Shown here in pieces: positions 1 through 31,318 of a stretch of DNA of 64,000 nt. Both the position numbers and the translations under genes were made by a program. Under the pieces are notes generated by a model. The model saw only the letters and a list, made by a program, of their open reading frames with translations, was not told where the DNA came from and did not search any database. The stretch comes from Thioalkalivibrio nitratireducens DSM 14787. GTDB lineage: Bacteria > Pseudomonadota > Gammaproteobacteria > Ectothiorhodospirales > Ectothiorhodospiraceae. Each line of letters opens with the position of its first letter. The first letter of the stretch is position 1. The stretch spans positions 868,001 to 932,000 of the forward strand of contig NC_019902.2 in assembly GCF_000321415.2 (NCBI RefSeq), read 5' to 3'.

Positions 1-143
1 GTGTTGAAAGCGGCATGGCCCTCGCTGAACAGCGGCAGCGAGGTATAGACACCCAGACCGATGGCGATCAGCGCAATCAGGAGGGTCAGGATCGGCATCC
101 CGCCACCCCGGGGAGCGTCCTGCAGTACGGCTTCGTTACTCAT
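1..143 (-). CDS. arxC: NrfD/PsrC-type membrane anchor subunit, 5' end only (arxC-like)
   Basis: Only the first 47 codons are present; the gene runs off the left edge. The start ATG lies 12 bases after the stop of the upstream FeS-subunit gene, with GAGG-like bases just before it. The visible peptide has a short polar N-terminus and one hydrophobic segment (about residues 16-36, TLLIALIAIGLGVYTSL). The position (third gene after a molybdopterin subunit and a four-cluster ferredoxin) is where a quinone-linked NrfD/PsrC-like anchor is expected, and in known arx operons this is arxC. The identification rests on gene order more than on the 47 residues. Confidence 0.55.
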   Translation of the reverse strand, partial: MSNEAVLQDAPRGGGMPILTLLIALIAIGLGVYTSLPLFSEGHAAFN

Positions 144-155
144 TTCTCATCTCCC

Positions 156-908
156 TCAGCTCTTGGTCTTGGGGGTGAAGGCCGGGATGCCGGCGCCGGC
201 GCCCAGGTAATAGACCTGCGGGCGGTTGCCGGTGTGATCGAGCAGGCGTACCCCGTGCTTGTCGCCGATCAGCCGGTTCACCTGGCTGGACGGGTTGTCC
301 AGGTCGCCGAAGAAGCGCGCCTTCGGCGGGCAGGTGCGCACGCAGGCCGGCACGTACTCCTTCAGCATCGGATCGTCCTCGTCCAGATCAGGAGTGCCTG
401 GAGGCGCCTTGCTGACCCGGTGGTAGCAGAAGGTGCATTTGGATACCACGCCGTGAGGCTGAACCCCGATGCCGCGGCGCCAGTCCTCCTCCGGGTTCTG
501 GTACGGCGGGCTCCAGAGCTGGCCACCCTCGCCGGGGAAGATCGCGCGCAGGTCGGGCTCGAGCAGCGGTTTCTCGTCGGCATAGAAACGGACGCCGTAC
601 GGGCACGCGATCATGCAGTACTTGCAGCCGATGCACTTGTTCCAGTCCACGAACACGATGCCGCCGGCGTCCATGTCCTTGTAGGTCGCCCGGGTCGGGC
701 ACACGTGCACGCAGGACGGGTTCTCGCACTGCATGCAGGGGCGCGGCAGCCACTTCATCTGGCCGCTCGGGTACTGCCCCTCGTGGTAATACAGAACGTC
801 CTGCCAGTTCTCGCCCGGCAGGGTGTTGTTCTCCATCGAACATGCGGTGGTACAGGCCTGGCAGCCCGTGCACTTGTCCAGGTCGATGACCATTCCCCAC
901 TTCGCCAT
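156..908 (-). CDS. arxB: Four-cluster ferredoxin subunit of the Arx molybdoenzyme complex
   Basis: A 250-residue electron-transfer subunit of the DmsB/PsrB/ArrB type that would carry electrons between the molybdenum subunit and the membrane anchor. It begins with a ferredoxin motif (C13, C16, C19, C23: CTGCQACTTAC) and has further groups CMQCENPSCVHVC, CIGCKYCMIAC and, in the C-terminal half, CTFCYHRV and ACVRTCPPKAR, which together can bind four FeS clusters. It has no Tat signal of its own, as usual for subunits exported together with a Tat-tagged partner. It sits 28 bases after the arxA-like gene and 12 bases before the NrfD-like gene, in one leftward operon. The family is certain; the arx assignment comes from the partners and the regulators. 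Confidence 0.8.
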   Translation of the reverse strand: MAKWGMVIDLDKCTGCQACTTACSMENNTLPGENWQDVLYYHEGQYPSGQMKWLPRPCMQCENPSCVHVCPTRATYKDMDAGGIVFVDWNKCIGCKYCMIACPYGVRFYADEKPLLEPDLRAIFPGEGGQLWSPPYQNPEEDWRRGIGVQPHGVVSKCTFCYHRVSKAPPGTPDLDEDDPMLKEYVPACVRTCPPKARFFGDLDNPSSQVNRLIGDKHGVRLLDHTGNRPQVYYLGAGAGIPAFTPKTKS

Positions 909-936
909 GATTCAGCTCCTCTCGATTCGTGCAGGG

Positions 937-3414
937 TCAGGCCCGTTCCACCGTGACCATGCCGGCGTAGTAGCTGGCAAGGCCGGAGATCGGGTCGGAG
1001 ACGTTCTCGGTGATTTCGCCGGAGTGGCCGGGCAGGCGCCCGCGGGCCCAGCGGCCCTGCGCCCAGTGGCCGTGTTCCATCGGCATCACCAGCGTGTCGG
1101 GCCGGTTCGAGGCCACGTAACGGCAGTACGCCTCGACGAATCCGAGGTTGGAGCGGATACGCACCCTGTCGCCGTTGCGGATGCCGCGGGCGCGGGCGGT
1201 CTCGGGGTGGATTTCCAGGTAGACGGTCGTCCGGCCGCCGGCGACCGGCTGCATCAGCGCGATCGCGTGCGGGATGTTGCCGCTGCGGCCCTCGGCATGC
1301 ATCGGCGTCTTCGGGGTGACGAAGTACAGATCGCCCTCGCCGGAGGAAGTGGGTTCCACCCACTGGGGCAGCCCGACGCGGCGCGCCGGAACGCCCAGCT
1401 CACGCTGGATGTAATCGGCATGGGCCTCCAGGAAGCCTGACTTGAATTCGAACTTTCCGGAAGGAGTCTTGATCAGCTTTTCCTTGACCTCCTCCGGCGT
1501 CATCTGCCGGTTGTAGCCTTCTCCGTCCCATTCGTAGAACTCGCCGCGGAACTGGCGCCAGTGGTAGGGCTTCTTGTACCAGACCCCCTTTGCCTTCCAG
1601 CTCTCGAAGTCCCGTACACCATTGTCGCCCGGGTCGTTCTCGAAGCCCTTCGCGCGGTGGCGGAGCACATTTTCCACGTTGTCGAGCGCCTTGTAGAAAT
1701 CGCCGGTCGGCCCCTTGATCCGCTTGCCGATCTCGATCAGCGTGTCGCCGAAATGCTTGGTGTCGTAGATCGGGTCGACGGCTGGGACGCGCAGCGCGGC
1801 CATCGGCCAGCCCTCGAACGGGTAGGTGGGTGAATCCTGCAGCCGTTCCAGGTAGGTGGGTTCCGGCACGATGATGTCCGCGTACATCGCCGTCTCGCCG
1901 GGAAACGGGGAGGTGTCGATGATGAACACGTCCTTCAGGGCCTCCTCCCATACCTTCGGGTCCGGCGCCGTCCAGATCGGGTTGGTGTAGAAGAACATCG
2001 CCGTGTCGAGCTTGTAGGGATCGCCCTTCAGGTGGTGTTCTGCGGTTTCCTGGATCATCGTGCCGGCCATTGGCCATTCCGCGGTGCCGGCCTTGTCGAT
2101 GCGCGGATACTTGCCGCGGATCTCCTTCGCATAGTCGTCCATGAAGTCGTCGGAATTCACCGGCAGCGGGCCGTAGGAGGGGCCCATCTGGTAATACATG
2201 CCGCCCTCGGCAAACAGACAGCCCGAAAGGGCGTTCAGCGCGTGGATCGCCATGCCGTTGTAGGTGCCGTTGGTATGCGAGGTCGGCCCCCGTTCCATGA
2301 TCGCCATTGCCGGGCGCGTGGTCCCGAACTCGCGTGCGACCGTCACGATGGTGCGTGCCGGGACGGTGGTAATGCTCTCGGCCCACTCGGGCGTGCGGTC
2401 CTTCAGTTCGTCGTTCCACCACTCCTCGATACCGCGGACCCAGCGCTCCTCGAAGCTGCCCCGGGGAATCGGCCTTCCTGCCCGGAACGCATTGCGCCCG
2501 TCGCGGAAGTCGCCAACGAACTCCTGGTCCCAAAGCCCTTCAGTCAGCATCACGTGGGCGATCGCCAGCGCCATGGCGCCATCGGTCGCGGGCTTGATGT
2601 ATACCGCCCGGTCAGAGGCGGCCATCGTCGGGTTCATCCGCACATCGACGGTCGTGACGCGCGTCTGCGGGCTTTTGGTCCGCATGTGGCCCCAGACCTG
2701 CATCAGGTAGTTGTACGGGCGGAAGGCCTCGAGGAAGGCGGCACCGAAGTTGAGGATGTAGTTGGTGTTCCGGTAGTCGTAGGAGTTATACGAGTTGTTC
2801 CCGTCGGTCGCCTGCTTGGCACGCTTGGAGCCCTCGGCGCATATGGAGGCATGGCCGATCGCGGAGTTCGGCGTGCCATAGAGCTTCCCGAAATCTCCAT
2901 AGAGGCCCGCGTCCGAGGCGCCCCAGCCGCGGCCGTAGAAATGCGCGAAGCGGAAGGACTCGCCGCGGTCGCGCAGGTCGTTCAACCGCGCCGCGATGGT
3001 GTCCAGCGCCTCGTCCCAGGAAATCGGCACGAAACCGGGATCCTCGTCCCGGCCCTTGCGCGGGTTGGTGCGCTTCATCGGCCCCTTGAACCGGTCCGGG
3101 TCATAGAGGAAATAGGTGCCCAGGTGTCCCTTTGGGCAGAGCTTGCCGTTGGCGATCGGGTTGCCGAGGTCGCCGTAGATCGCGTGCACCCGCCCGGCGG
3201 TCGTGTAGACGTCGATGCCGCAACGCGCCGGGCACTGGCCGCAGATGTTCTTGGTGACTCGGGTCTCGCCGCGCACGGGCTGGGCGTGGGCCTCCTTGAC
3301 CGGGGTCAGCCCAGGCAGGCCACCGATGCCGGCGACGGCCGCACCCGCCGCACCCGCCGCGGCACTGGTCTTCAGGAAGCGCCGCCGGTTCATCAGGGTT
3401 TCGAATAGCTTCAT
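937..3414 (-). CDS. arxA: Arsenite oxidase (ArxA-type) molybdopterin catalytic subunit
   Basis: An 825-residue DMSO-reductase-family protein with a Tat signal (RRRFLKTSAAAG, residues 10-21), a 4Fe-4S site (C58, C61, C65, C93) and the molybdopterin domains. Residues 159-165 read FYGRGWG, which I recall as the signature separating ArxA from ArrA (RGRY). The likely molybdenum ligand is C192 in GHASICAEG, with H188 and K197 at the spacing seen in ArrA/ArxA. Known ArxA enzymes oxidise arsenite to arsenate in the periplasm, often coupled to nitrate reduction or photosynthesis. GGAG lies 8 bases before the ATG. The setting (FeS protein upstream, FeS subunit and NrfD downstream, divergent X-S-R regulators, arsB nearby) supports ArxA. 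A polysulfide/thiosulfate reductase (PsrA/PhsA) is the alternative. Confidence 0.78.
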   Translation of the reverse strand: MKLFETLMNRRRFLKTSAAAGAAGAAVAGIGGLPGLTPVKEAHAQPVRGETRVTKNICGQCPARCGIDVYTTAGRVHAIYGDLGNPIANGKLCPKGHLGTYFLYDPDRFKGPMKRTNPRKGRDEDPGFVPISWDEALDTIAARLNDLRDRGESFRFAHFYGRGWGASDAGLYGDFGKLYGTPNSAIGHASICAEGSKRAKQATDGNNSYNSYDYRNTNYILNFGAAFLEAFRPYNYLMQVWGHMRTKSPQTRVTTVDVRMNPTMAASDRAVYIKPATDGAMALAIAHVMLTEGLWDQEFVGDFRDGRNAFRAGRPIPRGSFEERWVRGIEEWWNDELKDRTPEWAESITTVPARTIVTVAREFGTTRPAMAIMERGPTSHTNGTYNGMAIHALNALSGCLFAEGGMYYQMGPSYGPLPVNSDDFMDDYAKEIRGKYPRIDKAGTAEWPMAGTMIQETAEHHLKGDPYKLDTAMFFYTNPIWTAPDPKVWEEALKDVFIIDTSPFPGETAMYADIIVPEPTYLERLQDSPTYPFEGWPMAALRVPAVDPIYDTKHFGDTLIEIGKRIKGPTGDFYKALDNVENVLRHRAKGFENDPGDNGVRDFESWKAKGVWYKKPYHWRQFRGEFYEWDGEGYNRQMTPEEVKEKLIKTPSGKFEFKSGFLEAHADYIQRELGVPARRVGLPQWVEPTSSGEGDLYFVTPKTPMHAEGRSGNIPHAIALMQPVAGGRTTVYLEIHPETARARGIRNGDRVRIRSNLGFVEAYCRYVASNRPDTLVMPMEHGHWAQGRWARGRLPGHSGEITENVSDPISGLASYYAGMVTVERA

Positions 3415-3427
3415 CGCGGTTCTCTCC

Positions 3428-3487
3428 TCAACAGCCGATGGTTGTGTGGCCGGAAAGCCGTGTCGTTGTGGTGCTATCGTTTTTCAT
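3428..3487 (-). CDS. Possible 19-residue leader peptide ahead of arxA
   Basis: A short reading frame (MKNDSTTTTRLSGHTTIGC) ends 13 bases before the arxA start. It has a good ribosome site (AAGGGAAA, about 7 bases before ATG), and its stop overlaps the GGAG site that serves arxA, so translation of the two could be coupled. It lies in the gap between the arxB2-like gene and arxA. Nothing known matches it; it may be a chance frame in a 5' leader. Confidence 0.25.
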   Translation of the reverse strand: MKNDSTTTTRLSGHTTIGC

Positions 3488-3546
3488 TGATTTCCCTTGA
3501 GTGTCTTGGCGGTGCATTGCGTGGGTCCGCTTGCCCCCGGTTCGGC

Positions 3547-4743
3547 TCAGCCGTTGCGGCTGGCAAACAGGTCCGAGAAGACCGATTGCATCAGCTGCCG
3601 TGACTTCCGGCATGTGGGGCAGCTTGGCAGTGCCCCGTCGTCCTCGTCCCTCCCGTGCTGGACGAAATCGGCGCCGCACTCGGAGCAGGTCCGGGTCCCG
3701 TGTGTGATCAGGGTCCGCGGTCCGGTGGCGAAGTCGTGCGCCGTTGGCTGCCAGGCGATGGCGCCTTCCGGGCAGGCCTGGGTGCAGGCGGCACATTCGA
3801 TGCAGCGGTCCGGTTCGAAGTGGACAGACTTCCGGGAAGTGGATTCCTGAATCTCCAACGCGCCGGTGGGGCACAGGCGCACGCAGAGGCTGTGGTCCCG
3901 GCAGGTTCCCGCGATGGCCAGCGATGGACGCAGACCGGCGGGGAGGGGTCGGGTTCGCGTTTCGTCCAGTGCCCTGAGCCGGGCGATCAGGGCCAGACGT
4001 TTGCGTGGGGTGACCCGGGCGCGCCCATCCGGTGGCGGTGCATTGCCGATGCTGGCCGGAGGTATCGGTTCGTTCCCGGCATACCGGACGCGCACGCCCT
4101 CCGAAGCCAGGGCTTTCCAGAAGCCGCGCCGGCTTACGCCACTGCGGTGGAGGTCGCTTGCAGGTCCCGGGGACCGGGGTGCTGCCTGCAAGATACGGGC
4201 TTCGACTGCGATGCGGGGTTCGGGCGACGCCGATACCTCCGCGAGCAGGGCATTGGCCGTCTCCAGCGCGTCGGTTACCGGGGGGCAGGGATCGTCGCCG
4301 GCGGGGCATCCTACGCAGAGCCCGCGGTCCAGCAGTCGGACACCCGCTGGACTGCGTGCAACCAGTTGCAGCAGGGCATCCGTGCCCAGCCCGCCGAGGC
4401 AGGGTACGCGCAGGCCGCGTTCCGGTGTGCTCGCGGCGGGTACGCGGGTACAGTCGACGTACAGCGGTTCACCCGGTCGCGGCGTGGCCGGGTCCCGGTC
4501 GAAGCCGGTGATCGTGAGCGCATCGGTCGGACAGCGGGCTGCACAGCGGCCGCAGCCGACGCAGCCGTCGGCGAGTGCCCAGGTATCGGCAGCCAGAGAT
4601 AGCGCCCCCAGGAGGCACTGGTCCGCGCAGGCGTTGCAGCCGGCATGCGGAAAGCGCAGCGCCAGGCACTCCCGGGCATTCAGCCAGAGCGTGCGTTCCG
4701 GATGCAGCCGCGTGTACTGGGCTTGTCGAAGGGGGTCGGTCAT
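3547..4743 (-). CDS. arxB2: Multi-cluster ferredoxin protein at the head of the arx operon (arxB2-like)
   Basis: A 398-residue cytoplasmic FeS protein without signal peptide. It has Cys-rich ferredoxin motifs near the N-terminus (CNACADQC, CVGCGRCAARC), a pair in the second half (CRDHSLCVRLC, CIECAACTQAC) and a C-terminal rubredoxin/zinc-ribbon-like CSECGAD...CPTCRK. Arx operons begin with an extra ferredoxin-like gene (arxB', arxB2), which fits its place. The start at 4743 is preferred over the in-frame ATG at 4800 because the candidate sigma-54 promoter would start transcription near 4785. The gap of about 130 bases to arxA holds the possible leader peptide. The role, probably in maturation or electron transfer, is not known. 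Confidence 0.7.
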   Translation of the reverse strand: MTDPLRQAQYTRLHPERTLWLNARECLALRFPHAGCNACADQCLLGALSLAADTWALADGCVGCGRCAARCPTDALTITGFDRDPATPRPGEPLYVDCTRVPAASTPERGLRVPCLGGLGTDALLQLVARSPAGVRLLDRGLCVGCPAGDDPCPPVTDALETANALLAEVSASPEPRIAVEARILQAAPRSPGPASDLHRSGVSRRGFWKALASEGVRVRYAGNEPIPPASIGNAPPPDGRARVTPRKRLALIARLRALDETRTRPLPAGLRPSLAIAGTCRDHSLCVRLCPTGALEIQESTSRKSVHFEPDRCIECAACTQACPEGAIAWQPTAHDFATGPRTLITHGTRTCSECGADFVQHGRDEDDGALPSCPTCRKSRQLMQSVFSDLFASRNG

Positions 4744-4795
4744 TGGTGATCGATTCGGCTCGGGCCCCTGCGGGCTTGGGTTCGACGAAGTCAGC

Positions 4796-4811
4796 AGCAA
4801 ATGCCATGCCC
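4796..4811 (-). promoter_or_regulatory. Candidate sigma-54 (-24/-12) promoter for the arx operon
   Basis: On the minus strand the bases read GGGCATGGCATTTGCT. The invariant GG and GC are 12 bases apart, as sigma-54 requires; the -12 box TTGCT is a full match and the -24 box (consensus TGGCAC) has two mismatches. Transcription would begin near 4785, leaving a leader of about 42 bases before the start at 4743. The divergent operon encodes a sigma-54 activator with GAFTGA. Confidence 0.55.
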
Positions 4812-4899
4812 AGCATCGGTCGGATGCGTAAAACTGTCGGATTTGCAGAGGATTTTTGTAGGCTCGGGGCAGGATTTGTGGGCCGGCCCGGCACCTGCG

Positions 4900-4915
4900 G
4901 TTACCGATGGGTAAC
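4900..4915. promoter_or_regulatory. Inverted repeat, site 1 of a pair (possible ArxR enhancer site)
   Basis: GTTAC, six bases, GTAAC. It lies about 110 bases upstream of the sigma-54-like promoter and has the same architecture as the second site 45 bp away. That distance is typical of upstream activator sites for NtrC-type regulators. Confidence 0.55.
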
Positions 4916-4944
4916 GAGGCCGGGCTTGCGCTTCGAGGTCAATC

Positions 4945-4960
4945 GTTACCGCGTAGTAAC
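4945..4960. promoter_or_regulatory. Inverted repeat, site 2 of a pair (possible ArxR enhancer site)
   Basis: GTTAC, six bases, GTAAC, 45 bp from the first copy centre to centre. I recall a similar GTTnC-N6-GnAAC layout for AioR sites before arsenite oxidase genes; this is from memory and not checked. Confidence 0.55.
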
Positions 4961-5103
4961 GGTGCTGGACGACCGACCGCGGGGTTGCGCCAGGCGCCGG
5001 CTGTGGGTTCGTGTGCACGCGCGCTTCGAACCGGGGGTGACTCGGCCGTGTCCATCGTGCATGCGCTACCATGAATGGAGGTGTGCGTTTGCGGGGTGCT
5101 TCG

Positions 5104-5688
5104 ATGGGCGTGCAACAGGCGGTTTGGATGGATGCCGAGGCCTATCTGGCCTGGGAGGGTGAGCAGCAGGAGAAGCACGAGTACTTCCGCGGCGAGGTCT
5201 TCGCGATGGTCGGGGCCTCGGACGGGCATGTGACGATTACGCTCAACGTGGCGTCGGCCTTGCGCGAACACCTGCGCGGCGGGCCGTGCCGCAGCTTCAT
5301 TTCCGACATGAAGCTGCGCGTGGAGGCGGCCGACGCCTTCTTCTACCCGGACGTAATGGTGACCTGCGATGAGGCCGACCGCGCCCGGGGCCTCTACAAG
5401 GCTGCTCCAGTGCTGGTGGTGGAAGTACTCTCCCCCGGTACCGAGGCCTTCGACCGGGGGGCGAAGTTCGCCGCGTACCGGCTGCTGCCGAGCTTGCGGG
5501 AATACCTGCTGATCGACCCCATCACGGGGGCGCTGGACCTCTACCGGCGCGATCCCGAGAACCATTGGGTGCTGCACCCGCACAGTCCGCACGAGCGGGT
5601 CGAATTGCAGAGCGTTGCCCTGAGCCTGACCGGTGCGCGGATTTTCGAAGACGCCCCGCCGGGCCCTTCCAGCGATGAATCGGCGTGA
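5104..5688 (+). CDS. Uma2-family (DUF820) putative endonuclease
   Basis: A 194-residue protein of the Uma2 family, a PD-(D/E)xK-fold nuclease-like group common in cyanobacteria and some sulfur bacteria and of unknown role. Visible features are the N-terminal EAYLAWEGEQQEKHEYFRGE block, the middle FYPDVMVTCDE and the VVEVLSPGTEAFDRGAKFAAY block, which carry the D, E and K expected in the fold. An in-frame ATG at 5071 would add 11 residues; 5104 fits the family start better. Its end overlaps the arxX start by 14 bases, so it is the first gene of the sensor operon. Known arx loci that I recall have no such gene there, so it may be a later arrival. Confidence 0.8.
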   Translation: MGVQQAVWMDAEAYLAWEGEQQEKHEYFRGEVFAMVGASDGHVTITLNVASALREHLRGGPCRSFISDMKLRVEAADAFFYPDVMVTCDEADRARGLYKAAPVLVVEVLSPGTEAFDRGAKFAAYRLLPSLREYLLIDPITGALDLYRRDPENHWVLHPHSPHERVELQSVALSLTGARIFEDAPPGPSSDESA

Positions 5689-6523
5689 TGTCCTCGCAGC
5701 GGGCCTGTTGCTGCCGGCGATTCTGGGCGCGGATACAGGGCAGGAGCGGTCGACCTTCCGGATCGGGCTGACGCCGGTTTTTCTGGACGACCAGGTCGAG
5801 TTCCTGAAGCGCTGGCGTCAGTACCTGGAACGGCGGCTGGAAGCCCCGGTTCAGTTCGTGCAGCGGGCGAGTTACCGCGAGGTCACCGAACTCGTATTGC
5901 ACGGCGAACTGGACGTGGCGTGGCTGTGCGGCTATCCGTACGCGTTGAATGCCGATCGGCTGCGGCTCCTGGCCGTACCCCTGGTCGAGGGACGGCCGCT
6001 GTACCGGAGCTACATCCTCGTCTGGGACGAGGACCTCACGTCGCGGAGCCTGACCGATCTCGAAGGCCGGATCTTCGCGTTCTCGGATCCGCTGTCCAAC
6101 TCCGGCCACCTGTTCCCGCAGTACGTGCTATCGATGCTCGACCTGCGTCCCGAGGAATTCTTCCGCCGAACGTTCTTCACCTGGTCGCACCGACATGTGG
6201 TCGAGGCGGTGGCGGTGGGCCTGGCCCAGGCGGGTGCGGTCGATGGCTTCGTCTGGGAGATGCTGAACCGACTGCACCCGGAGATCACCAGGCGCACCCG
6301 CGTGATCGAACGGTCTCCCGAGTTCGCGTTTCCTCCACTGGTCACCAGCATCCACCTGGCACCGGATCGCTACGCATTGCTTGCGCGCGTGTTCCTGGGC
6401 ATGCACGCGGACGCTCAGGGCCGGGATCTGCTCACGGAACTTGGCCTCAGCGGTTTCGCGAAGGGGGATCGCAGCGACTACGACGAGATCCTGTTCATGG
6501 CCGAGGAACTCCAGCGTGCTTGA
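5675..6523 (+). CDS. arxX: Periplasmic oxyanion-sensing binding protein (PhnD-like, ArxX/AioX type)
   Basis: A 282-residue phosphonate/phosphate-binding-like protein (FRIGLTPVFLDDQVEFLKRW at the start of the mature part, later FAFSDPLSNSGHLFPQY). The N-terminus MNRRDVLAAGLLLPAILG is a Tat/Sec-like signal. AioX proteins bind arsenite through one cysteine and pass the signal to the kinase AioS; here the only cysteine is C85, in AWLCGYPY. The ATG overlaps the end of the Uma2 gene, and the stop overlaps the GTG of the kinase gene. No ABC transporter genes are nearby, so a sensing role is more likely than transport. The ligand, arsenite, is inferred. Confidence 0.75.
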   Translation: MNRRDVLAAGLLLPAILGADTGQERSTFRIGLTPVFLDDQVEFLKRWRQYLERRLEAPVQFVQRASYREVTELVLHGELDVAWLCGYPYALNADRLRLLAVPLVEGRPLYRSYILVWDEDLTSRSLTDLEGRIFAFSDPLSNSGHLFPQYVLSMLDLRPEEFFRRTFFTWSHRHVVEAVAVGLAQAGAVDGFVWEMLNRLHPEITRRTRVIERSPEFAFPPLVTSIHLAPDRYALLARVFLGMHADAQGRDLLTELGLSGFAKGDRSDYDEILFMAEELQRA

Positions 6524-7976
6524 CCTGATGCTGCGCAACCTGAGCCTGCGCTACCGCCTGCCGCTGCAGGCCTCGCTGCTGGTGCTCACCACCGCGCTCC
6601 TGCTGACCGGCGCGATCCTGCTGCGCGAATACCAGCAGGGCCGGCAGGATCTGTTCGAGACGGCCGAGAGCACCGCGCGCCTCCTCGCGGCCACCCTGGT
6701 CCAGCCGCTGCTGCACGACGACCTCTGGCGGGCGCACGCGCTGATCAACGCACCCTTCGATCCCGAGGATCCCTGGCCGCTGGCGGTGGAGTCGGTGCTG
6801 ATCCTGGACGCGGACCAGCGGGTCTATGTATCCACCGAGCCGCGGCGCTACCGGTTGGGGACCCCGGTGGGGGAGCTCGATCCGCCGTTCGCCTACCTGC
6901 GCAGCGGGGGCGGGATTCGGGACGACGAGGGCTTCCGCATCCTGACCCCCCGGGGGGCGGATCATTTCCTGTTCGAGCTGCCGGTCCATTTCGACGGCAT
7001 GATCCTGGGCAGCCTGGCTCTTGCGTACCCGCGTGCACTGCTGATCCCGCGATTCCTGAGCATTGTCACCCGTGCGGGATTGGTGCTGCTGGTGATGTTG
7101 CTGTTGCTGCTGCCGTTGACCTGGTGGTGGGGACGGCGGGTGGTGCAGCCGCTGGTGCACCTGTCGCACTGCATGAGCCAGATGCGCGAACGTCTCCCGC
7201 CGGACGAGGCCTGCGACCTGCCGAACTCCGGGGACGAGATCGGTGACCTCGGGCGGGAGTTCCGGCGGCTGCTGACGCAGTTGCGCCAGAAGCAGGCGCT
7301 GGAGGAGAGCATGCTGGCCAGCGAGCGCCTGGCCACCGTGGGGCGCATCACCGCCGGAATCGCGCACGAGATCAACAATCCGCTGGGCGGCATGCTCAAC
7401 GCGATCAGCACGCATCGCAGGCACGGCGATGTGGATCCGCTCACCGCAAGGACGCTGTCGCTGCTGGATCGGGGCCTGAACCAGATCCGGGATACGGTCG
7501 GCGCCCTGCTGGTCGAGGCCCGGGTGACCAGCCACGCGCTGGAACCGCAGGATCTCGAGGATGTGCGTACACTGGTGAGTCCCGATGCCCAGCAGCGGAA
7601 GGTGGAGATCGAATGGGACAACCGGATCGAGGGACGTCTCGACCTGCCGTCATCGCAGGTGCGCCAGATCCTGATGAACCTGTTGCTGAACGCGGTCCAG
7701 GCGAGCGATCCGGGTGCCACCGTACGCTGCAGCCTCCGACGTGAGGGGGACGGGTTGCAGATGAGCGTGGTCAATCGTGGCGACCCGATTCCCCGTGAGC
7801 AGATGGAGCGATTGTTCGAGCCTTTCGTGAGCGGTTCGCCCTCCGGTAGCGGCCTCGGGCTGTGGGTGACCTATCAGCTGGTGAGCCAGATGGACGGGCG
7901 GATCGAGGTGGAGAGCGGCGATGATCGCACCACGCGCTTCGACGTGTTCCTGCCGCCGGCGAGGGCGGCGGCATGA
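6516..7976 (+). CDS. arxS: Membrane sensor histidine kinase (ArxS type)
   Basis: A 486-residue kinase: transmembrane segment near residues 17-36, periplasmic sensor region of about 140 residues, second transmembrane segment near 184-206, HAMP-like linker, dimerisation domain with phospho-acceptor H284 in GIAHEINNPLGG, and an ATPase domain with the N-box (MNLLLNAVQAS) and a G-box (GSGLGLWVTYQL). The GTG at 6516 has GAGGAAC at good distance; an ATG at 6528 is the alternative. It overlaps both neighbours (arxX by 8 bases, arxR by 4), so the three are translated together. It probably senses ligand-bound ArxX and phosphorylates ArxR. Confidence 0.85.
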   Translation: MLDLMLRNLSLRYRLPLQASLLVLTTALLLTGAILLREYQQGRQDLFETAESTARLLAATLVQPLLHDDLWRAHALINAPFDPEDPWPLAVESVLILDADQRVYVSTEPRRYRLGTPVGELDPPFAYLRSGGGIRDDEGFRILTPRGADHFLFELPVHFDGMILGSLALAYPRALLIPRFLSIVTRAGLVLLVMLLLLLPLTWWWGRRVVQPLVHLSHCMSQMRERLPPDEACDLPNSGDEIGDLGREFRRLLTQLRQKQALEESMLASERLATVGRITAGIAHEINNPLGGMLNAISTHRRHGDVDPLTARTLSLLDRGLNQIRDTVGALLVEARVTSHALEPQDLEDVRTLVSPDAQQRKVEIEWDNRIEGRLDLPSSQVRQILMNLLLNAVQASDPGATVRCSLRREGDGLQMSVVNRGDPIPREQMERLFEPFVSGSPSGSGLGLWVTYQLVSQMDGRIEVESGDDRTTRFDVFLPPARAAA

Positions 7977-9313
7977 TGCCGGCACCACGGCTTTGCCTGA
8001 TCGAGGATGACCCGATCATGGGAGAGTCGCTCTGCGACCGCTTTGCTCTCGAGAGGCTGGAACACGACTGGTTCCGGGACATTGCCAGTGCCGGGGCCGC
8101 GCTGCGAACCCGGGAATACGCAGTGGTCGTCAGCGATATCCGCTTGCGGGACGGAACGGGCGATGCGCTGTTCGAGTCACTGCGCGCCGAGGGTGTGGCG
8201 ATGCCGCCATGGCTGTTCATCACCGCCTTTGGCGCCATCGACCGCGCGGTGGGGCTGCTCAAGCAGGGTGCGGCCGATTACATCACCAAGCCCTTCGACC
8301 TTGACGTGCTCGTCGAGCGGCTTCAGGGCTACCTGGAACCCATGGTTTCCGATGCAGCCGGGGAGCGCCTGGGCGTGTCACCGGTAATGCGCCACTTGGC
8401 CGGCCTGCTGCCACGGCTGGCGCGCCATGCGACCACGATGCTGATCACCGGCGAATCGGGCGTGGGCAAGGAAGTGGTGGCCCGGGAACTGCACCGCCTG
8501 GGCGAGGACGCCGGTGCCCCGTTCGTGGCCGTGAATTGTGGCGGACTGAGCGAGTCCCTGCTGGAAGCCGAACTGTTCGGACACGAGAAGGGCGCGTTCA
8601 CCGGGGCGCTGCAGCGCCGTCCGGGCGTCTTCGAACAGGCCCATGGCGGGACACTGTTCCTGGACGAAATCGGCGACATGCCGCTGGCGATGCAAGTCAA
8701 GCTATTGCGCGTGTTGCAGGACCGTCAGGTCACGCGTGTGGGCGGCAGCAGCAGCCGGGAGGTGGATTTCCGTCTGATTTGCGCCACGCACCGGGATCTG
8801 CGCGCCGAGGTGCAGGCGGGGCGGTTCCGTGAGGACCTGTTCTATCGCATTCACGTGATTCACCTGCGCATCCCGCCGTTGCGTGAGCGGCGCGACGACA
8901 TTCCGTGGCTGGCCCGCCGGTTTCTCGCGGAAGCGGGCGGGCGTGGCGGTGAGCCGGTCAAGCACCTATCGCCGCAGGTGGAGCAGGCACTGCTGACCCA
9001 CGAATGGCCCGGCAACGTCCGTGAACTGAAGAACGCGATCGAGCGCGCGTGCGTGCTGAGCGCCGGTGACCAGTTGATGCTCGAGGCCTTGTTCGACGAT
9101 GTCATCACCGGGCCCGTGGAGGTGGAGGGTTTTGGCAGTGCAGACCTTCACGGCTACCTGCGCGCCTGCGAGCGGGGCTACATCGAGAAGGCGTTGGCCG
9201 CAAATGAAGGCCGCATCACGATAACCGCCGAGGCCCTGGGCATCAGCCGCAAGAACCTCTGGGAACGCATGAAACGCCTGGGCATCCCGGCCCTGGAACC
9301 CGACAAGGGCTAA
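7973..9313 (+). CDS. arxR: Sigma-54-dependent response regulator (ArxR type)
   Basis: A 446-residue NtrC-family activator. The receiver domain carries the phospho-acceptor D55 (VVVSDIR) and K106 (YITKPFD). The AAA+ domain has Walker A GESGVGKE (160-167), the sigma-54 contact loop GAFTGA (207-212), Walker B FLDEIGD and an arginine-rich FREDLFYRI. The C-terminal Fis-type helix-turn-helix reads ITAEALGISRKNLWERM. It overlaps the kinase gene by ATGA. Its likely targets are the paired repeats at 4900-4960 and the sigma-54-like promoter of the divergent arx operon. Confidence 0.88.
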   Translation: MMPAPRLCLIEDDPIMGESLCDRFALERLEHDWFRDIASAGAALRTREYAVVVSDIRLRDGTGDALFESLRAEGVAMPPWLFITAFGAIDRAVGLLKQGAADYITKPFDLDVLVERLQGYLEPMVSDAAGERLGVSPVMRHLAGLLPRLARHATTMLITGESGVGKEVVARELHRLGEDAGAPFVAVNCGGLSESLLEAELFGHEKGAFTGALQRRPGVFEQAHGGTLFLDEIGDMPLAMQVKLLRVLQDRQVTRVGGSSSREVDFRLICATHRDLRAEVQAGRFREDLFYRIHVIHLRIPPLRERRDDIPWLARRFLAEAGGRGGEPVKHLSPQVEQALLTHEWPGNVRELKNAIERACVLSAGDQLMLEALFDDVITGPVEVEGFGSADLHGYLRACERGYIEKALAANEGRITITAEALGISRKNLWERMKRLGIPALEPDKG

Positions 9314-13692: not shown

Positions 13693-14036
13693 CGGCATCT
13701 CCTCGGCGGTTGCCTGCCTCATTCTGACGACCGGCGCCCTTCGGTTCCAGCGGCCAGCATCGGTTGGCGGCAGAATCGCGATCATGATCTGGGTCAACCA
13801 AAGGCCGTCGGTGGGCAACGGCGCTCGCTTGTGGTGCGGTGTGCTTACCGCAATCCTCGATTCCGGCCTTTCGATGCTCGTCGCCGTCGGATGCATCCGA
13901 TGAGCGGTAGAAGGGGGCGAGCGGTCCCTGTTTCCGGTCGGTTTGCCGGGCATCAGCCCGGACTCCTAAAATCCTGTGGGGCAGGCTCGGCACCCCGAGG
14001 CTCCCTGTGGGTATCGCCACTAGCCAGGAGAGTCCG
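13693..14036. other. Divergent intergenic region, no gene seen
   Basis: The 344 bases between the redox fusion gene and the CBS gene should carry both promoters, but I could not pick a convincing pair of boxes. The ribosome site CAGGAGAG for the CBS gene lies at the right end. Confidence 0.35.
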
Positions 14037-14519
14037 ATGCGCGTTCGCGAACTGATGACCCCCGCCCCGGTTACGGTGCCCTCCGAAATGCCGGTGGATG
14101 CGCTCGTCGACCTGCTGGTCGAACGGCGCGTCAACGGCGTTCCCGTCGTGGACGCGGACGGTGTGTTGCTGGGCATGGTGACCACCGGCGACCTGATTCA
14201 CCGGGTCGCCGACGCGCGCGTCGAGGACCGGGGGTCGTTCTGGCGCGAGTCCTTCTACAAATCCGTTTTCCGCCCCAACGGGCCGGAGCCAAACCCGGCC
14301 GAGGGCGCGACAGCGGCCGAAGTAATGAGCCGTAATCCTGCCTTTGTGGCTCCGTCCGATGACATGGCCGTCGCCGCCCGGCTGCTGATCGAGCACCGGG
14401 TGAAGTCCCTGCCGGTGCTCGACAATGGCCGCCTGGTCGGGATGATCTCGCGGCTGGACCTTCTGCGCTGCCTGCGTGCACACCCGGAATGCTGCAATCC
14501 GTTCCTACGCCACGACTGA
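14037..14519 (+). CDS. CBS-domain pair protein
   Basis: A 160-residue cytoplasmic protein of two CBS repeats (MTPAPVTVPSEMPVDAL with GVPVVDADGVLLGMV, and MSRNPAFVAPSDDM with SLPVLDNGRLVGMIS) split by an insert of about 35 residues. Such stand-alone pairs usually bind adenosine nucleotides and regulate a partner. AGGAGA lies before the ATG at 14037, preferred over a start ten codons earlier. It is 54 bases upstream of arsB in the same direction and may be cotranscribed with it; a regulatory link to ArsB is speculative. The C-terminus ends with the Cys pair HPECCNPF. Confidence 0.85.
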   Translation: MRVRELMTPAPVTVPSEMPVDALVDLLVERRVNGVPVVDADGVLLGMVTTGDLIHRVADARVEDRGSFWRESFYKSVFRPNGPEPNPAEGATAAEVMSRNPAFVAPSDDMAVAARLLIEHRVKSLPVLDNGRLVGMISRLDLLRCLRAHPECCNPFLRHD

Positions 14520-14573: not shown

Positions 14574-15866
<1,293 letters not shown>

Positions 15867-18340: not shown

Positions 18341-19156
18341 GTGAGACCGGACGTCGACGGCCGATTCTGGCTGAACATTGAGGGCAAGGGTTTCCTTGGC
18401 CTCGGGCGCATCGAACTGCTGGAGCAGATCGGCGCCACGGGCTCGATCTCGGCCGCTGCCCGGAAGATGGGCATGAGCTACAAGACCGCCTGGGATGCGA
18501 TCGACGCGATGAACAACCTCGCGGACGAGCCCCTGCTGATCCGGCAGGTCGGCGGCCGGCACGGCGGTGGCACGCGGCTGACGGAGTACGGAAAACGGGT
18601 GACTCGCCAGTACCGGGCCGCGGAACACGAGTACCAGCGCTTCATCGACGTGATGCGCGAGCAACTGGCACACCTGGGCCTGAAGGAGCCTCCGGACGGC
18701 TGGAGCTTCATCAGGAGAATGGCCATGCGTACATCGGCACGAAACCAGTTCCAGGGCAAGGTGGCCCGCTTCACCGAGGGGGCGGTCAACGACGTGATCA
18801 CCGTCGACATTGGGGGTGGGATCGAGATTTCCTCGGTGGTCACGCACGAGGCGGCGCAGTCCCTGGACTTGCTGCGGGAGGGGCGCGAGGTGCAGGCGTT
18901 GATCAAGGCCTCGTTCGTGATTCTGTGCGAGGACGTCGAAGGGATGCGCTTCAGCGCCCGCAACCGTCTCTGTGGAATTGTGAGCCGGGTCCAGCCCGGT
19001 GCGGTGAATGCGGAGGTGAAGCTCGATCTCTCCGCCGGCAGGACGCTCACGTCCATCGTGACCATGGACGCCGTGAATGAGGGCTGGCTGAAAGAGGGCG
19101 GCCGGGTCTGTGCCCTGATCAAAGCCCCCCACGTGGTTCTCGCCGTCTCGGATTGA
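18341..19156 (+). CDS. modE: Molybdate-responsive transcription regulator ModE
   Basis: A 271-residue regulator: N-terminal winged helix (GRIELLEQIGATGSISAAAR, MSYKTAWDAIDAMN, GGRHGGGTRLTEYG) and two C-terminal Mop domains (SARNQFQGKVARFTEGAVND and SARNRLCGIVSRVQPGAVNA), each with an IKA segment for molybdate binding. With molybdate bound it represses modABC and activates molybdoenzyme genes in known systems. The start is GTG with GGGGAG before it. It precedes modA in the same direction; the window's three molybdoenzymes give a clear reason for tight control. Confidence 0.93.
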   Translation: MRPDVDGRFWLNIEGKGFLGLGRIELLEQIGATGSISAAARKMGMSYKTAWDAIDAMNNLADEPLLIRQVGGRHGGGTRLTEYGKRVTRQYRAAEHEYQRFIDVMREQLAHLGLKEPPDGWSFIRRMAMRTSARNQFQGKVARFTEGAVNDVITVDIGGGIEISSVVTHEAAQSLDLLREGREVQALIKASFVILCEDVEGMRFSARNRLCGIVSRVQPGAVNAEVKLDLSAGRTLTSIVTMDAVNEGWLKEGGRVCALIKAPHVVLAVSD

Positions 19157-19242
19157 TCCCATACAGAGCAAGCGACACGTGTCCGTAGGCTGGTGCGATA
19201 ACTCCCTAACCACCGAACTGCTGCCAAACCGAGGAGTGAGCG

Positions 19243-20016
19243 ATGAAAAACCCGTTCTTGCTTGTTCTCGCCACCGTCGCGATCGTCTTCGCGAGCGCGG
19301 CCCATGCGGAGAGGTTCACCATCGCGGCGGCGTCGGATTTGCGTTTCGCGCTGGACGACATCGCGGAGCTCTACCGCCAGCAGCATCCGGATCACGAGTT
19401 CAACGTCATTTACGGTTCGTCCGGGAAGATGACGACCCAGATCATGAACGGTGCCCCTTACGATGTGTTCTTCTCAGCGGACATCGCGTTCCCCGAACGT
19501 CTGAAGGAGGCCGGCCTCACGGCCACTGAACCCGAGGTCTATGCCATCGGCCGGATCGTGATCTGGAGCAATACGCTCGATGCGTCCGAACTCCGGCTCG
19601 AGGATCTTCCGACCGATCCCAGGATCCGCCGCGTCGCGATCGCGCAGCCGTCGCACGCGCCCTATGGCCTGCGTGCGCAGGAGGCGATGGAATCGGTCGA
19701 GGTGTGGGAAGCCGTGCAGCCGCGGCTGGTCTTCGGCGAGAACATCGCCCATACCGCTCAGATGGTCGAATCCGGGGCCGCCAACGTCGGGATCATCGCG
19801 CTCTCGCTGGCCAGGTTTCCGTCGCTGGCCATGCACCCCTACTACCTGATCGACGACGGGCTGCACAATCCGTTGAGCCAGGCCTACATCGTCACCAGGC
19901 GCGCGAAGGAGAACGACGCCGCGAAGAGCTTCGCCCGCTACATGGAGATCGACGAAGCCCACGAGATCATGGAACGCTACGGTTTCGTGATGCCCGGCAG
20001 CGACAGTGACGGGTAG
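19243..20016 (+). CDS. modA: Molybdate ABC transporter, periplasmic binding protein ModA
   Basis: A 257-residue protein with signal peptide (1-22, cleavage after AHA) and the ModA pattern: AAASDLRFALDDIAELY, VIYGSSGKMTTQIMNGAPYD, FFSADIAFP, ending with EIMERYGF. It delivers molybdate or tungstate to ModBC. AGGAGTGAGCG precedes the ATG. The TAG stop is formed by the GTAGGGCGG edge of a REP repeat that separates it from modB, so the last residues (GSDSDG) may differ from the ancestral end. Confidence 0.92.
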   Translation: MKNPFLLVLATVAIVFASAAHAERFTIAAASDLRFALDDIAELYRQQHPDHEFNVIYGSSGKMTTQIMNGAPYDVFFSADIAFPERLKEAGLTATEPEVYAIGRIVIWSNTLDASELRLEDLPTDPRIRRVAIAQPSHAPYGLRAQEAMESVEVWEAVQPRLVFGENIAHTAQMVESGAANVGIIALSLARFPSLAMHPYYLIDDGLHNPLSQAYIVTRRAKENDAAKSFARYMEIDEAHEIMERYGFVMPGSDSDG

Positions 20017-20128
20017 GGCGGACGGGCGAAGCGTCATCCACCATGCGGCCTCCATCGTCACCACCACACCCAGGGGCTATCCCGGGCGCCCTTCGGCGGA
20101 TGACGGCCTTCGGCCTTTTCCGCCCTAC
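20013..20128. repeat. REP-type repeat between modA and modB
   Basis: GTAGGGCGG at the left and GGCGGATGACGGCC with TTTTCCGCCCTAC at the right. It fills the whole modA-modB gap and supplies the modA stop codon. Confidence 0.7.
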
Positions 20129-20151
20129 GCTTCGGGGCAGAGGGTAACGGT

Positions 20152-20838
20152 ATGTTGGGACTCGGACCGGCCGACTGGCAGGCGATTGAGCTGACGTTCA
20201 AGCTCTGCCTGTACACTACGATCATCCTGCTGATCATTGCCACCCCGATCGCCTGGTGGCTGGCGAGCGGGCGCTCGGTCGTGCGGGTGGCGGTGCAGGC
20301 CGTCGTCGCCCTGCCGCTCGTCTTGCCCCCGACCGTGCTCGGCTTCTACCTGCTGATCGTGCTCGGTCCGCGGGGGTTTGTCGGGGGAGCGCTCGAGTCC
20401 ATCGGCCTGCATCACCTCGCATTCACCTTCGAAGGCATCCTGGTGGCTTCGGTGCTGTACTCGATGCCTTTCGCGGTGCAGCCGCTGACCGAGGCCTTCA
20501 AGAATCTCGGGCCGCGCCCGGTCGAGGTCGCGAGCAGCCTCGGCGCCGGCGTGTGGGACCGTTTCTTCACCGTGATCCTGCCACTGACCCGCGGCGGTTT
20601 CGTGGTCGCCGCCACTCTGACCTTCGCCCACACGGTCGGCGAGTTCGGCGTGATCCTGATGCTCGGAGGCAGCATTCCAGGGGAGACCAAGGTTCTGTCG
20701 GTGCTGATTTACGATCACGCCGAGGCGATGAACTATGAGGCCGCGCACCGCCTGTCGGCAATTCTGCTGGCGTTCGCCTTCTTCACGCTGTTCGTCGTTT
20801 ACACGATCACGCGCCGCTTCGAGGTGGCGAAGGTATGA
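20152..20838 (+). CDS. modB: Molybdate ABC transporter permease ModB
   Basis: A 228-residue inner-membrane permease with about five transmembrane segments. LPLVLPPTVLGFYLL and the cytoplasmic loop EVASSLGAGVWDRFFTVILP (EAA-type motif that contacts the ATPase) are typical of ModB. It overlaps modC by ATGA, so the two are translated together. It is separated from modA by a REP repeat that may lower or differentially stabilise expression. Confidence 0.93.
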   Translation: MLGLGPADWQAIELTFKLCLYTTIILLIIATPIAWWLASGRSVVRVAVQAVVALPLVLPPTVLGFYLLIVLGPRGFVGGALESIGLHHLAFTFEGILVASVLYSMPFAVQPLTEAFKNLGPRPVEVASSLGAGVWDRFFTVILPLTRGGFVVAATLTFAHTVGEFGVILMLGGSIPGETKVLSVLIYDHAEAMNYEAAHRLSAILLAFAFFTLFVVYTITRRFEVAKV

Positions 20839-21905
20839 CGCTGTCGGTGCGGGTGCGTCTGGATCGAGGCAGCTTCACGCTTGATGTCGACATCAATCTG
20901 CCCCTCGAGGGTGTTACCTCCCTGTTCGGGCGTTCCGGCTGCGGGAAGACGACGCTGCTGCGCATCATTGCGGGGCTGGAGAAGGTGCGCGGTGCCGAGG
21001 TCCGCTTTGGCCAGCGGGTCTGGCAGCAGGGGCGGCAGTTCATGCCGCTGCACAGGCGTCGTATCGGGCTGGTGTTCCAGGAGCACAGCCTGCTCCAGCA
21101 CCTGTCCGTGCGCGGCAACTTGCTGTACGGCTACAACCGCACGCCGCGGGAAGCCCGGCGGCTGCAGCTGCGTGAGGCCACCGACATGCTCGGCATCGAC
21201 GATCTGCTCGACCGCCCGATCGACCAGCTCTCCGGCGGCCAGCGCCAGCGCGTTTCGCTCGGCCGGGCGCTGCTGACCAGTCCGCAACTCCTGTTGCTGG
21301 ACGAGCCGATGGCAGCACTGGACACCCAGACCAAGCGCGAGATCATGCCTTTCCTGTCGCGTATGGCGAGCGAGGCCGGCGTCCCGATCATGCTGGTCAC
21401 CCACGCGCCGGACGAGGTCGAGCGCCTCGCCGACCGTGTGGTCTTCATGCGCGACGGCCAGGTCGAATGCAGCGAGCCGTTGCGCCAGGCGCTCGCCCGC
21501 CCCGATTCGCCGCTGTTCGCTGAAGAGGGAGCGGTATCAGTGCTGGAAGGCCCGCTCGGCCCGGTAAACGAACACGGGCTGCGGCCGTTCGGAGCTGAGA
21601 CGGCTCGGCTGTGGCTTCCGAACGGTGGGGCGGAACCCGCGGGCCAGGCCATCCGGGTGCGAATCCTGGCCCGCGACGTCAGCCTGGCGCTGGATGACCC
21701 GCGGCGGATCAGCATCCAGAATCACCTGAAGGTGCGCGTAGAGCGGATCGATACGCCCCGTGCGGGCCGCTGTGTGGTGGCCACCCGCACCGCGGACCGT
21801 CAGTTACTGCTGGCCGAGGTCACACCCTGGGCCGTGGACCAACTCGCCCTGGAACCTGGCGCGGACGTCTACGCGCTGATCAAGTCGGTGGCTTTGGTGA
21901 ACTGA
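20835..21905 (+). CDS. modC: Molybdate ABC transporter ATP-binding protein ModC
   Basis: A 356-residue ATPase with Walker A FGRSGCGKTT (31-40), Q-loop LVFQEHSLLQHL, signature LSGGQRQRVSLGRALL, Walker B LLLLDEPMAALD and H-loop LVTHAPDE. After about residue 290 a Mop domain (SIQNHLKVRVERIDTPRAG, YALIKSVALV) would bind molybdate and allow feedback control of uptake. The overlap with modB and the normal length indicate an intact operon. Confidence 0.94.
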   Translation: MTLSVRVRLDRGSFTLDVDINLPLEGVTSLFGRSGCGKTTLLRIIAGLEKVRGAEVRFGQRVWQQGRQFMPLHRRRIGLVFQEHSLLQHLSVRGNLLYGYNRTPREARRLQLREATDMLGIDDLLDRPIDQLSGGQRQRVSLGRALLTSPQLLLLDEPMAALDTQTKREIMPFLSRMASEAGVPIMLVTHAPDEVERLADRVVFMRDGQVECSEPLRQALARPDSPLFAEEGAVSVLEGPLGPVNEHGLRPFGAETARLWLPNGGAEPAGQAIRVRILARDVSLALDDPRRISIQNHLKVRVERIDTPRAGRCVVATRTADRQLLLAEVTPWAVDQLALEPGADVYALIKSVALVN

Positions 21906-23787: not shown

Positions 23788-24837
23788 TCAGTTCGTGGCC
23801 TGGTTCCGGTCATTCATCAGGAACTGTTCGCCGAGTTTGATCAGCGCGGCGGCGACGGCGATACCCAGCACGAGGATCAGGATCTCCGGCAGGTTCGGCC
23901 GATAGGACTGGACCGCGCCGTACCAGTCAGCGGTCGGCCCCAGCGACACGAGCTGCCCGGTGATGATGAAGCTGTATTGCACCCAGAGCACGGCCACGAT
24001 GGCCAGCAGCGCGAGCAGACGCGGGGCGAGATGCAGCAGCGCGGCCGCGATAATGAAGGGCGCCAGCATCGAGATGCTCGCCCAACCGAGCATTCCGGCA
24101 ACGGTGCTGTGTGCCTCGTAGGCCACGCGTATCAGCAACAGCGCCGCGAGCAGCAGCGCGGTCTGCCGGAAGATGCGCCCGACAGTCTCGGTCAGCGTGC
24201 TTTGCGGGCGCAGCAGCACGATCGCGGCCGTGCCGCTGACCAGCGCCGAGACCAGCGTGACCACCGACAGGAAGGCCCCGTGGTAGTCCGGACGCCCGAT
24301 CACGGTGCCGAACACCGCGCCGATAGTGATCGCCGCGGCGGCAGCGATGAGCAGCGTGCCCCAGGCCAGCGGCAGGTCGAACACCCCATGGCGCCCTTTC
24401 AGGTCCATCACCAGCTTCACGAACAGCAATACCAGTTCGATGGAATACAGCGTGCCCATCCACCAGATCGGCGAACTCGGGTTCGGCGACAGCAGGATCC
24501 AGACCATGTTCAGCAGCGAGCCCAGTTCCGTGGCCAGCGCGGTGAAGCCTCCGACCAGCATCCCGATGGCCAAGATCAGCAGGGCCCGCGTATGCCGCGT
24601 GATGGCCTCATCGTCCATGATCAGCCCGTAGGCCAGCACCAGCGAGACCCCGGTACTCATCAACGCGAGGAAGATGTAGGTGATCAGCGGTAGTGTCCAG
24701 ACCAATGCGCTGTTGGTTGCGAACAGGTGGCCAAAGAACATCTCGTACAGCCCTACAGCACCGCCCGCTACCAGTCCAACGGCGATCAGGGTCCAGGTGG
24801 GTGTGAGAAAATCTTTCACACTGACGTTGGAGTTCAT
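23788..24837 (-). CDS. arrC: NrfD/PsrC-type quinone-interacting membrane subunit (ArrC-like)
   Basis: A 349-residue protein with about nine or ten transmembrane helices and the NrfD pattern (TPTWTLIAVGLVAGGAVGLY, GVSLVLAYGLIMDD, ALATELGSLLNMVWILLSP). It anchors the molybdenum and FeS subunits in the membrane and exchanges electrons with the quinone pool. It starts 3 bases after the FeS subunit gene, so the three form one operon. Some ArrA systems use a CymA cytochrome instead; the NrfD form (arrABC) is the other known arrangement. Confidence 0.75.
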   Translation of the reverse strand: MNSNVSVKDFLTPTWTLIAVGLVAGGAVGLYEMFFGHLFATNSALVWTLPLITYIFLALMSTGVSLVLAYGLIMDDEAITRHTRALLILAIGMLVGGFTALATELGSLLNMVWILLSPNPSSPIWWMGTLYSIELVLLFVKLVMDLKGRHGVFDLPLAWGTLLIAAAAAITIGAVFGTVIGRPDYHGAFLSVVTLVSALVSGTAAIVLLRPQSTLTETVGRIFRQTALLLAALLLIRVAYEAHSTVAGMLGWASISMLAPFIIAAALLHLAPRLLALLAIVAVLWVQYSFIITGQLVSLGPTADWYGAVQSYRPNLPEILILVLGIAVAAALIKLGEQFLMNDRNQATN

Positions 24838-24840
24838 GGA

Positions 24841-25581: not shown

Positions 25582-25610
25582 GACTGAACTCTCCTGGCAA
25601 TTTTCGGCTG

Positions 25611-28286: not shown

Positions 28287-28351
28287 GCGCGTGATCCTCG
28301 CTTCTGCGTCGATGGACCCCCGCATTGCGCGCTTTCGTAAGGGGTCGTTTC

Positions 28352-31307: not shown

Positions 31308-31318
31308 GGCGCACCTCC

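Follow-up and report, generated by a model that had tools for sequence, protein, structure and literature searches.

A predicted arsenite-sensed arx operon in Thioalkalivibrio nitratireducens with a candidate palindromic ArxR box and an apparently mosaic ancestry

We analysed a stretch of 64,000 nucleotides (the window; positions 868,001–932,000) of the single-contig complete genome of Thioalkalivibrio nitratireducens (4,002,350 bp), the left end of which carries an Arx-type locus. Judging from sequence comparisons, it is highly probable that the operon arxB2-A-B-C-D, together with the divergent arxXSR genes, forms an arsenite-sensed, sigma-54-driven arsenite oxidation system. We further consider it likely, though less certain, that two things hold together: ArxR acts via a usually paired palindromic enhancer, GTTAC-N6-GTAAC (a stricter AioR box that tracks ArxR across Proteobacteria classes and, in this genome, occurs solely at the arx promoter, i.e. 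a one-operon regulon), and ArxC was exchanged independently of ArxA, the catalytic and quinone modules being interchangeable. Coordinates are those of the window unless L-labelled; L010 is the left-flank stretch with its own numbering (L010:16974–18143 corresponds to genome 866974–868143).

The arx locus of this organism is already known. We take the strain names DSM 14787 and ALEN2 to denote one strain. Ospino 2019 lists T. nitratireducens DSM 14787 by name in its trees of ArxAB and of ArxD (PMC6549141; this and the other PMC-numbered papers are cited from excerpts of their text), and among 76 Thioalkalivibrio strains Ahn 2019 found ArxA and ArrA together in ALEN2 only (PMC6620896). In itself the locus is no new entry among the arx strains; what is added comes from comparing its relatives.

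Gene content and the identity of ArxA and ArxX

At positions 1–9313, open reading frames and family profiles place arxB2, arxA, arxB and the start of arxC on the minus strand, and a Uma2-family gene, arxX, arxS and arxR on the plus strand. The first-pass annotation of these letters had described a Tat-exported FYGRGWG molybdoenzyme, two FeS proteins and an NrfD start, and this description holds. arxA (937–3414; 825 amino acids) encodes a molybdopterin catalytic subunit that begins with the Tat signal MNRRRFLK, carries FYGRGWG and exceeds the Pfam cut-offs for TAT_signal (23.3 bits, cut-off 22.7), Molybdop_Fe4S4 (44.4 bits, cut-off 22.7) and molybdopterin oxidoreductase. arxB (156–908; 250 amino acids) encodes a 4Fe-4S electron-transfer subunit with 4Fe-4S domains, 90% identical to that of the related locus L011, and arxB2 (3547–4743) a polyferredoxin with Pfam Fer4 domains in two stretches and 27–39% identity to relatives. 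The NrfD start at the left edge is the first 143 nt (1–143) of arxC, the gene for an NrfD-type membrane subunit of 389 amino acids (L010:16974–18143; Pfam NrfD, 79.2 bits). The arxB2 reading frame spans 3547–4800; the ATG at 4743 was taken as the start, and a TTG start at 4800 would overlap the promoter element described below. Inspection of arxB2 by eye for a signal peptide revealed none.

On the other strand, the announced PhnD-like sensor, kinase and sigma-54 activator are equally recognisable: arxX (5678–6523), for a predicted periplasmic arsenite-binding sensor protein with a Phosphonate-bd (PhnD-like) domain; arxS (6528–7976), for a sensor histidine kinase with HisKA and HATPase; and arxR (7973–9313), for a sigma-54 activator response regulator with Response_reg, Sigma54_activat and HTH_8, 50–67% identical to the ArxR of 30 relatives. 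The starts of arxX and arxS were placed within longer, mechanically called reading frames. arxD, which was to be sought beyond the left edge, was found there (L010:15532–16515; Pfam Nitrate_red_del, 65.3 bits), and no arx or arxXSR reading frame is interrupted. The gene order arxA-arxB-arxC is present in 41 of 44 related loci, the contigs of L017, L043 and L049 stopping before arxC, and by our own count arxXSR lies divergently upstream of arxB2 in 27 of the 44. Because both features recur across related loci, the arrangement is not a matter of chance, and the reading as arxB2ABC with arxXSR proposed at first sight is supported by gene content, the ArxA tree and the ArxX sensor pocket.

The ArxA assignment was examined in a quick tree of 67 rows. 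All 50 XGRGWG rows (the window, 43 of the 44 relatives and six further rows; L054, of which only the arxA end is present, was left out) fall on one side of a branch (100*), and the 17 others, which include PDB PsrA, PhsA-like rows, PDB ArrA, the ArrA of the window and three own paralogues on long branches, and whose internal order is unsafe, on the other. The named ArrA and PsrA anchors are PDB sequences; searches across the class with the NCBIfam ArrA and PhsA profiles (369 and 229 genomes) gave nothing over the cut-offs. The firm grouping with PsrA or PhsA, named at the outset as the result that would refute the reading, is absent. XGRGWG, which takes the place of (R/K)GRY in the window protein and is carried by all 43 relatives in the tree, is part of the published Arx definition (PMC6549141). 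Within the XGRGWG rows, the window ArxA belongs to a 24-row set (100*) with Nitrincola lacisaponensis and Thioalkalivibrio ALMg11 and AKL19, strains named by Ospino 2019 (PMC6549141), and to a starred four-row group that also contains L011 (an Ectothiorhodospiraceae metagenome-assembled genome, the nearest at 85% identity) and two Azoarcus (L012, L043); it stands apart from the ArxAs of the Thioalkalivibrio-labelled L014, L023, L024, L026, L045 and L047. Together, tree and motif support its prediction as the catalytic subunit of an ArxA-clade arsenite oxidase. A search of the whole genome for an AioA-type large subunit gave a best match of 130.8 bits (cut-off 359.05), so none passes. In Azoarcus CIB, disruption of arxA abolished arsenite oxidation, and arsenite induces arxA without oxygen in Azoarcus CIB, MLHE-1 and PHS-1 (PMC6683785).

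The predicted sensor points to the same substrate. Among solved structures, AioX is closest to the window ArxX (E 1.6e-59) and ArrX next (6.1e-41). With AioX numbering anchored at Cys106, and checked by the agreement of the remaining six pocket letters with those published (Badilla 2018, PMC5908839), the window ArxX keeps all seven pocket residues (Tyr88, Cys106, Tyr131, Ser161, Ser163, His192 and Asp210) as well as the loop residues Val56 and Phe57, which are absent from ArrX; Cys106 is present in all 33 ArxX rows, window included. The ArxX of A. ehrlichii bound arsenite with a Kd of 311 nM (PMC5908839). These residues support the window ArxX as a predicted arsenite sensor of the AioX/ArxX kind.

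Upstream elements and ArxC ancestry

A sigma-54 -24/-12-like element, GGGCATGGCATTTGCT (4796–4811, minus strand), begins 68 nt before the arxB2 ATG. It scores 16.8 of 18.3 (p 0.004 by 500 shuffles) on weights that we set ourselves from the general consensus, with a threshold score of 15. The association with the activator was assessed in the 41 loci, among them the window, that offered 330 nt or more of upstream sequence, counting ArxR as present at an identity of at least 50%: an element scoring at least 15 precedes arxB2 in 29 of the 31 loci with ArxR, as against 2 of the 10 without (Fisher p 1.9e-5), and 5 of 217 control stretches inside arxA reach this score. Limited to contigs long enough to show ArxR missing, the comparison is 29/31 versus 0/3 (p 0.0017). 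The genome encodes RpoN (478.5 bits).

Upstream of this element lie the two proposed ArxR boxes, GTTACCGATGGGTAAC (box 1, 4900–4915) and GTTACCGCGTAGTAAC (box 2, 4945–4960; neither assigned a strand), which are the only two exact copies of GTTAC-N6-GTAAC in the entire genome; the reversed control pattern has no exact copy. A search for shared dyads in the 220 nt upstream of the element returned GTTAC-N6-GTAAC in 26 of 29 regions, and at most 2 in 30 rounds of shuffling. Counted over the 600 nt upstream in the 42 rows with arxB2 (L019 having only 8 nt upstream), exact boxes are present in 29: 27 of the 31 loci with ArxR, window included, plus L011 and L038, which gives 27/31 with ArxR versus 2/10 without. 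Two exact boxes are found in 19 of the 42 loci, their starts 41–45 nt apart in 15, 33–34 in three and 90 in one. Exact boxes number 48 in the 24.4 kb upstream of arxB2 versus 12 in 807 kb elsewhere, 10 of these 12 lying inside arxB2. As a rough correction for kinship, upstream DNA was clustered by shared 9-mers, upon which 23 of 27 clusters with ArxR retain the box versus 2 of 10 without. The box appears to be new for arx: no description of it was found in a search limited to open-licence papers, most of them seen as listings, or in the excerpts consulted (PMC5908839, PMC5335332, PMC6011840 and PMC7533571). A defined box and sigma-54-like element make control by ArxXSR open to binding and reporter tests, and the box offers a means to seek ArxR targets in other genomes.

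Several further box-like sites were recorded. A third exact box lies inside the arxB2 coding region (~+584 to +596) in L032–L035, L037 and L040, of the Aromatoleum/Azoarcus group, and further exact boxes lie inside arxB2 of L011, L042, L051 and L052. Two relatives carry second XSR sets (L042:16513–20492 and L051:15996–19536); the former has an exact box upstream, and the 864 nt examined for the latter contain no GTT-N10-AAC. Boxes with one mismatch elsewhere in the T. nitratireducens genome are attributable to chance, given 25 sites (2 exact, 23 with one mismatch) versus 33 for the reversed control; for the three of the 23 that fall in the aprAB/sat region (L107), inspection of genes and a sigma-54 scan gave no link.

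From these parts (gene content, ArxA clade, ArxX pocket, boxes, promoter-like element and RpoN gene) a scheme can be proposed in which substrate, direction, electron path, the role of ArxB2, ArxR–box binding and induction are drawn from homologues and general knowledge. Periplasmic arsenite would bind ArxX, and the signal would pass through the kinase ArxS to ArxR. Phosphorylated ArxR would then bind both GTTAC-N6-GTAAC boxes and, with sigma-54, open RNA polymerase at the -24/-12 element before arxB2. ArxD, perhaps with ArxB2, would load the cofactor into ArxA, which would be exported by Tat together with ArxB and anchored by ArxC. ArxA would oxidise arsenite, and the electrons would pass via ArxB and then ArxC to quinone, feeding respiration with nitrate or oxygen.

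The second part of our proposal concerns ArxC. A careful tree built from 42 ArxC rows makes the window protein sister to the ArxC of L014 (96/97), to which it is 62% identical; it is only 44% identical to the ArxCs of L011, L012 and L054, which are 81–90% identical mutually. Grouping the window ArxC with these three is rejected (approximately unbiased, AU, test, p 0.00016), as is grouping the window ArxA with L014 (p 0.0003). For ArxD, kinship with L014 is rejected (p 0.0019), and kinship with L011 and L012 not quite (p 0.063); the tests for ArxB (AU p 0.317) and ArxR (p 0.171 and 0.078) do not decide. The ancestry groups were named after identities had been seen, which weakens these p values. 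Given these outcomes, only ArxC is clearly discordant. By these comparisons ArxC looks to be of different ancestry from ArxA and the operon to be mosaic, exchange of arxC alone being the simplest reading; hidden paralogy might also lie behind the discordance. Ospino 2019 noted a discordance of ArxD for T. nitratireducens, and the two main-text mentions of arxC report none for ArxC (PMC6549141, in the excerpt cited).

Competing readings and genomic surroundings

A number of observations weigh against an arsenite-sensed, sigma-54-driven oxidation system. The sigma-54 weights are self-set, and kinship among the loci means that the counts are not independent. In L036, which has ArxR, a perfect sigma-54 match stands before arxA (at 8370), with arxB2 placed apart and no box; the upstream regions of L047, L051 and L052 have one-mismatch boxes only. 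Boxes are accompanied by a sigma-54 score of just 13.1 in L037 and by a poor element in L038 (ArxR 36%), and L011 has boxes and element and no arxXSR on its 9,956-bp contig. There is no ArxA model among the NCBIfam results, in which the window ArxA scores 418 of 1600 bits against the ArrA profile, so ArxA membership relies on tree, motif and context, and ArxA works in both directions in vitro (PMC7533571). Finally, arsenite is the presumed electron donor of this strain.

Among the alternatives, the one that survives best, itself improbable in our judgement, is that arx is present by descent and idle, and that another enzyme, perhaps SoeABC-like, carries out any arsenite oxidation; Ahn 2019 proposed such an enzyme on observing that a strain lacking known oxidases oxidised arsenite (PMC6620896). 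In its favour, the Uma2 gene intervenes at the usual arxX promoter, and the genome encodes a cytoplasmic-looking molybdoenzyme (L107:11485–14349), 4–7 kb from aprAB and sat, for which no family passes its cut-off. SoeA is our provisional name for this enzyme. Against it, every arx and arxXSR frame is open and both boxes and the sigma-54-like element are present. In Tv. jannaschii arsenite clearly upregulated only arxB2, the first gene (PMC6620896), which favours a live promoter there and speaks weakly for the rest of the operon.

It is slightly less probable still that the enzyme is mainly an arsenate reductase, or reversible, in the cell. ArrA is indeed the closest solved enzyme to the window ArxA (6cz7, E 5.5e-106), and ArxA was bifunctional in vitro (PMC7533571); however, a second, distinct protein of this genome is an ArrA with RGRY (25611–28325), and the ArxX next to the arx genes keeps the AioX/ArxX loop residues, which are lacking in ArrX. 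A Psr/Phs-type oxidoreductase acting on polysulfide or thiosulfate is very improbable: it shares the subunit plan (A, 4Fe-4S B and NrfD C), but the PhsA profile match of 280 bits is far from the cut-off of 694, the neighbouring sensor is of the arsenite type, and we rejected this candidate on finding the PDB PsrA and PhsA-like rows outside the ArxA side of the 100* branch. Arsenite oxidation under ArxXSR control is the reading we retain.

Between the boxes and arxX sits the reading frame of the Uma2-family (PF05685) putative endonuclease (5071–5688, plus strand; 130.7 bits), which overlaps the arxX start and went unmentioned in the first-pass annotation. It has no match in the 44 related loci, some of which stop short of the region, and may at present head the sensor operon. 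At the other end, arxC and arxD are separated by about 20 copies of a seven-base tandem repeat, TGCCCCG (L010:16752–16889). Beyond arxD lie the genes for a 181-amino-acid protein with one CxxCH and for an FKBP (L010:14483–15527, minus strand). The former protein has no Pfam or NCBIfam match and, in our reading, a signal-like start and a membrane anchor, and we read it as a putative cytochrome c. Among the 31 loci in which 1.5 kb or more is visible downstream (8 of 39 arxD loci were left out for lack of room), 11 have the CxxCH-protein gene after arxD and 11 the FKBP gene; both are possible unnamed members of the arx operon.

The arx genes, arrABC, an ArsB pump and molybdate transport all lie inside the same 28 kb. 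arrABC (23788–28325, minus strand) comprises ArrA (25611–28325), ArrB (24841–25581) and an NrfD subunit (23788–24837), with arrA ~22 kb from arxA. Both ArrA (1125 of 1600 bits) and ArrB (338 of 450 bits) are under the NCBIfam cut-offs; ArrA has the RGRY motif, and its companions in the tree are PDB ArrA and ArrAs of the same genus (up to 93%), with ~35 residues (331–365) unaligned to PDB ArrA. With arx and arr within 28 kb of one cultured strain, arsenic oxidation and reduction would be separable by single deletions. The ArsB arsenite efflux pump (14574–15866, plus strand) scores 669 bits against a curated cut-off of 457, and beside it are the genes for a CBS-domain protein (14007–14519) and a 518-amino-acid membrane protein with a weak glutaredoxin match below the Pfam cut-off. 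ModE-like and modABC genes follow at 18341–21905 (modABC over cut-offs), then a formate dehydrogenase-N gene with an in-frame TGA (31319–34372; TIGR01553 over cut-off).

The arsenic genes are flanked on the left (L010:3410–12429) by selA, selB and selD, which are over cut-offs, and by a transporter whose binding protein resembles TIGR04553, of putative selenate type (196 of 250 bits), and on the right (30396–34372) by the formate dehydrogenase-N genes. Elsewhere in the genome, an octaheme nitrite reductase gene (L055:877–2622) shows no difference from PDB 2zo5 over 525 residues, with 2ot4, the T. nitratireducens enzyme (PMC5433712), next; the multi-haem profile matched no nitrite reductase in the genome or in controls, and another family matched it.

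Relation to known arsenic systems

The enzyme family nearest to ArxA is that of the ArrABC arsenate reductase, whose ArrA differs by RGRY in place of XGRGWG and by its separate clade. Compared with arxB2ABCD-arxXSR of Alkalilimnicola ehrlichii MLHE-1 and relatives, the T. nitratireducens locus is alike in gene set, divergent layout, XGRGWG and ArxX pocket; it differs in the Uma2 gene before arxX, in an ArxC whose ancestry appears unlike that of ArxA, and in the CxxCH-protein and FKBP genes after arxD, both of which also occur in other loci.

Control by ArxXSR is stated as undemonstrated in two 2019 arx papers (PMC6549141 and PMC6683785, in the excerpts cited). For A. ehrlichii, a putative RpoN promoter and a site for ArxR ahead of the arx genes had been put forward by Badilla 2018 (PMC5908839); the idea is the same, but the 14-nt site has one gtaac half only, and both the palindrome and its association with ArxR from locus to locus are products of the present comparison. 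The closest regulatory parallel is AioXSR/AioR of Agrobacterium and Rhizobium NT-26, likewise composed of a periplasmic arsenite sensor, a kinase and a sigma-54 activator, although its target, aioBA, encodes another oxidase. Published for AioR are the consensus GTT-N10-AAC and the footprint GTTCGGATTTCCGAAC (PMC5335332), which share the 16-bp geometry of the arx boxes; while the AioR consensus is looser, the arx boxes fix the inner letters as GTTAC-N6-GTAAC.

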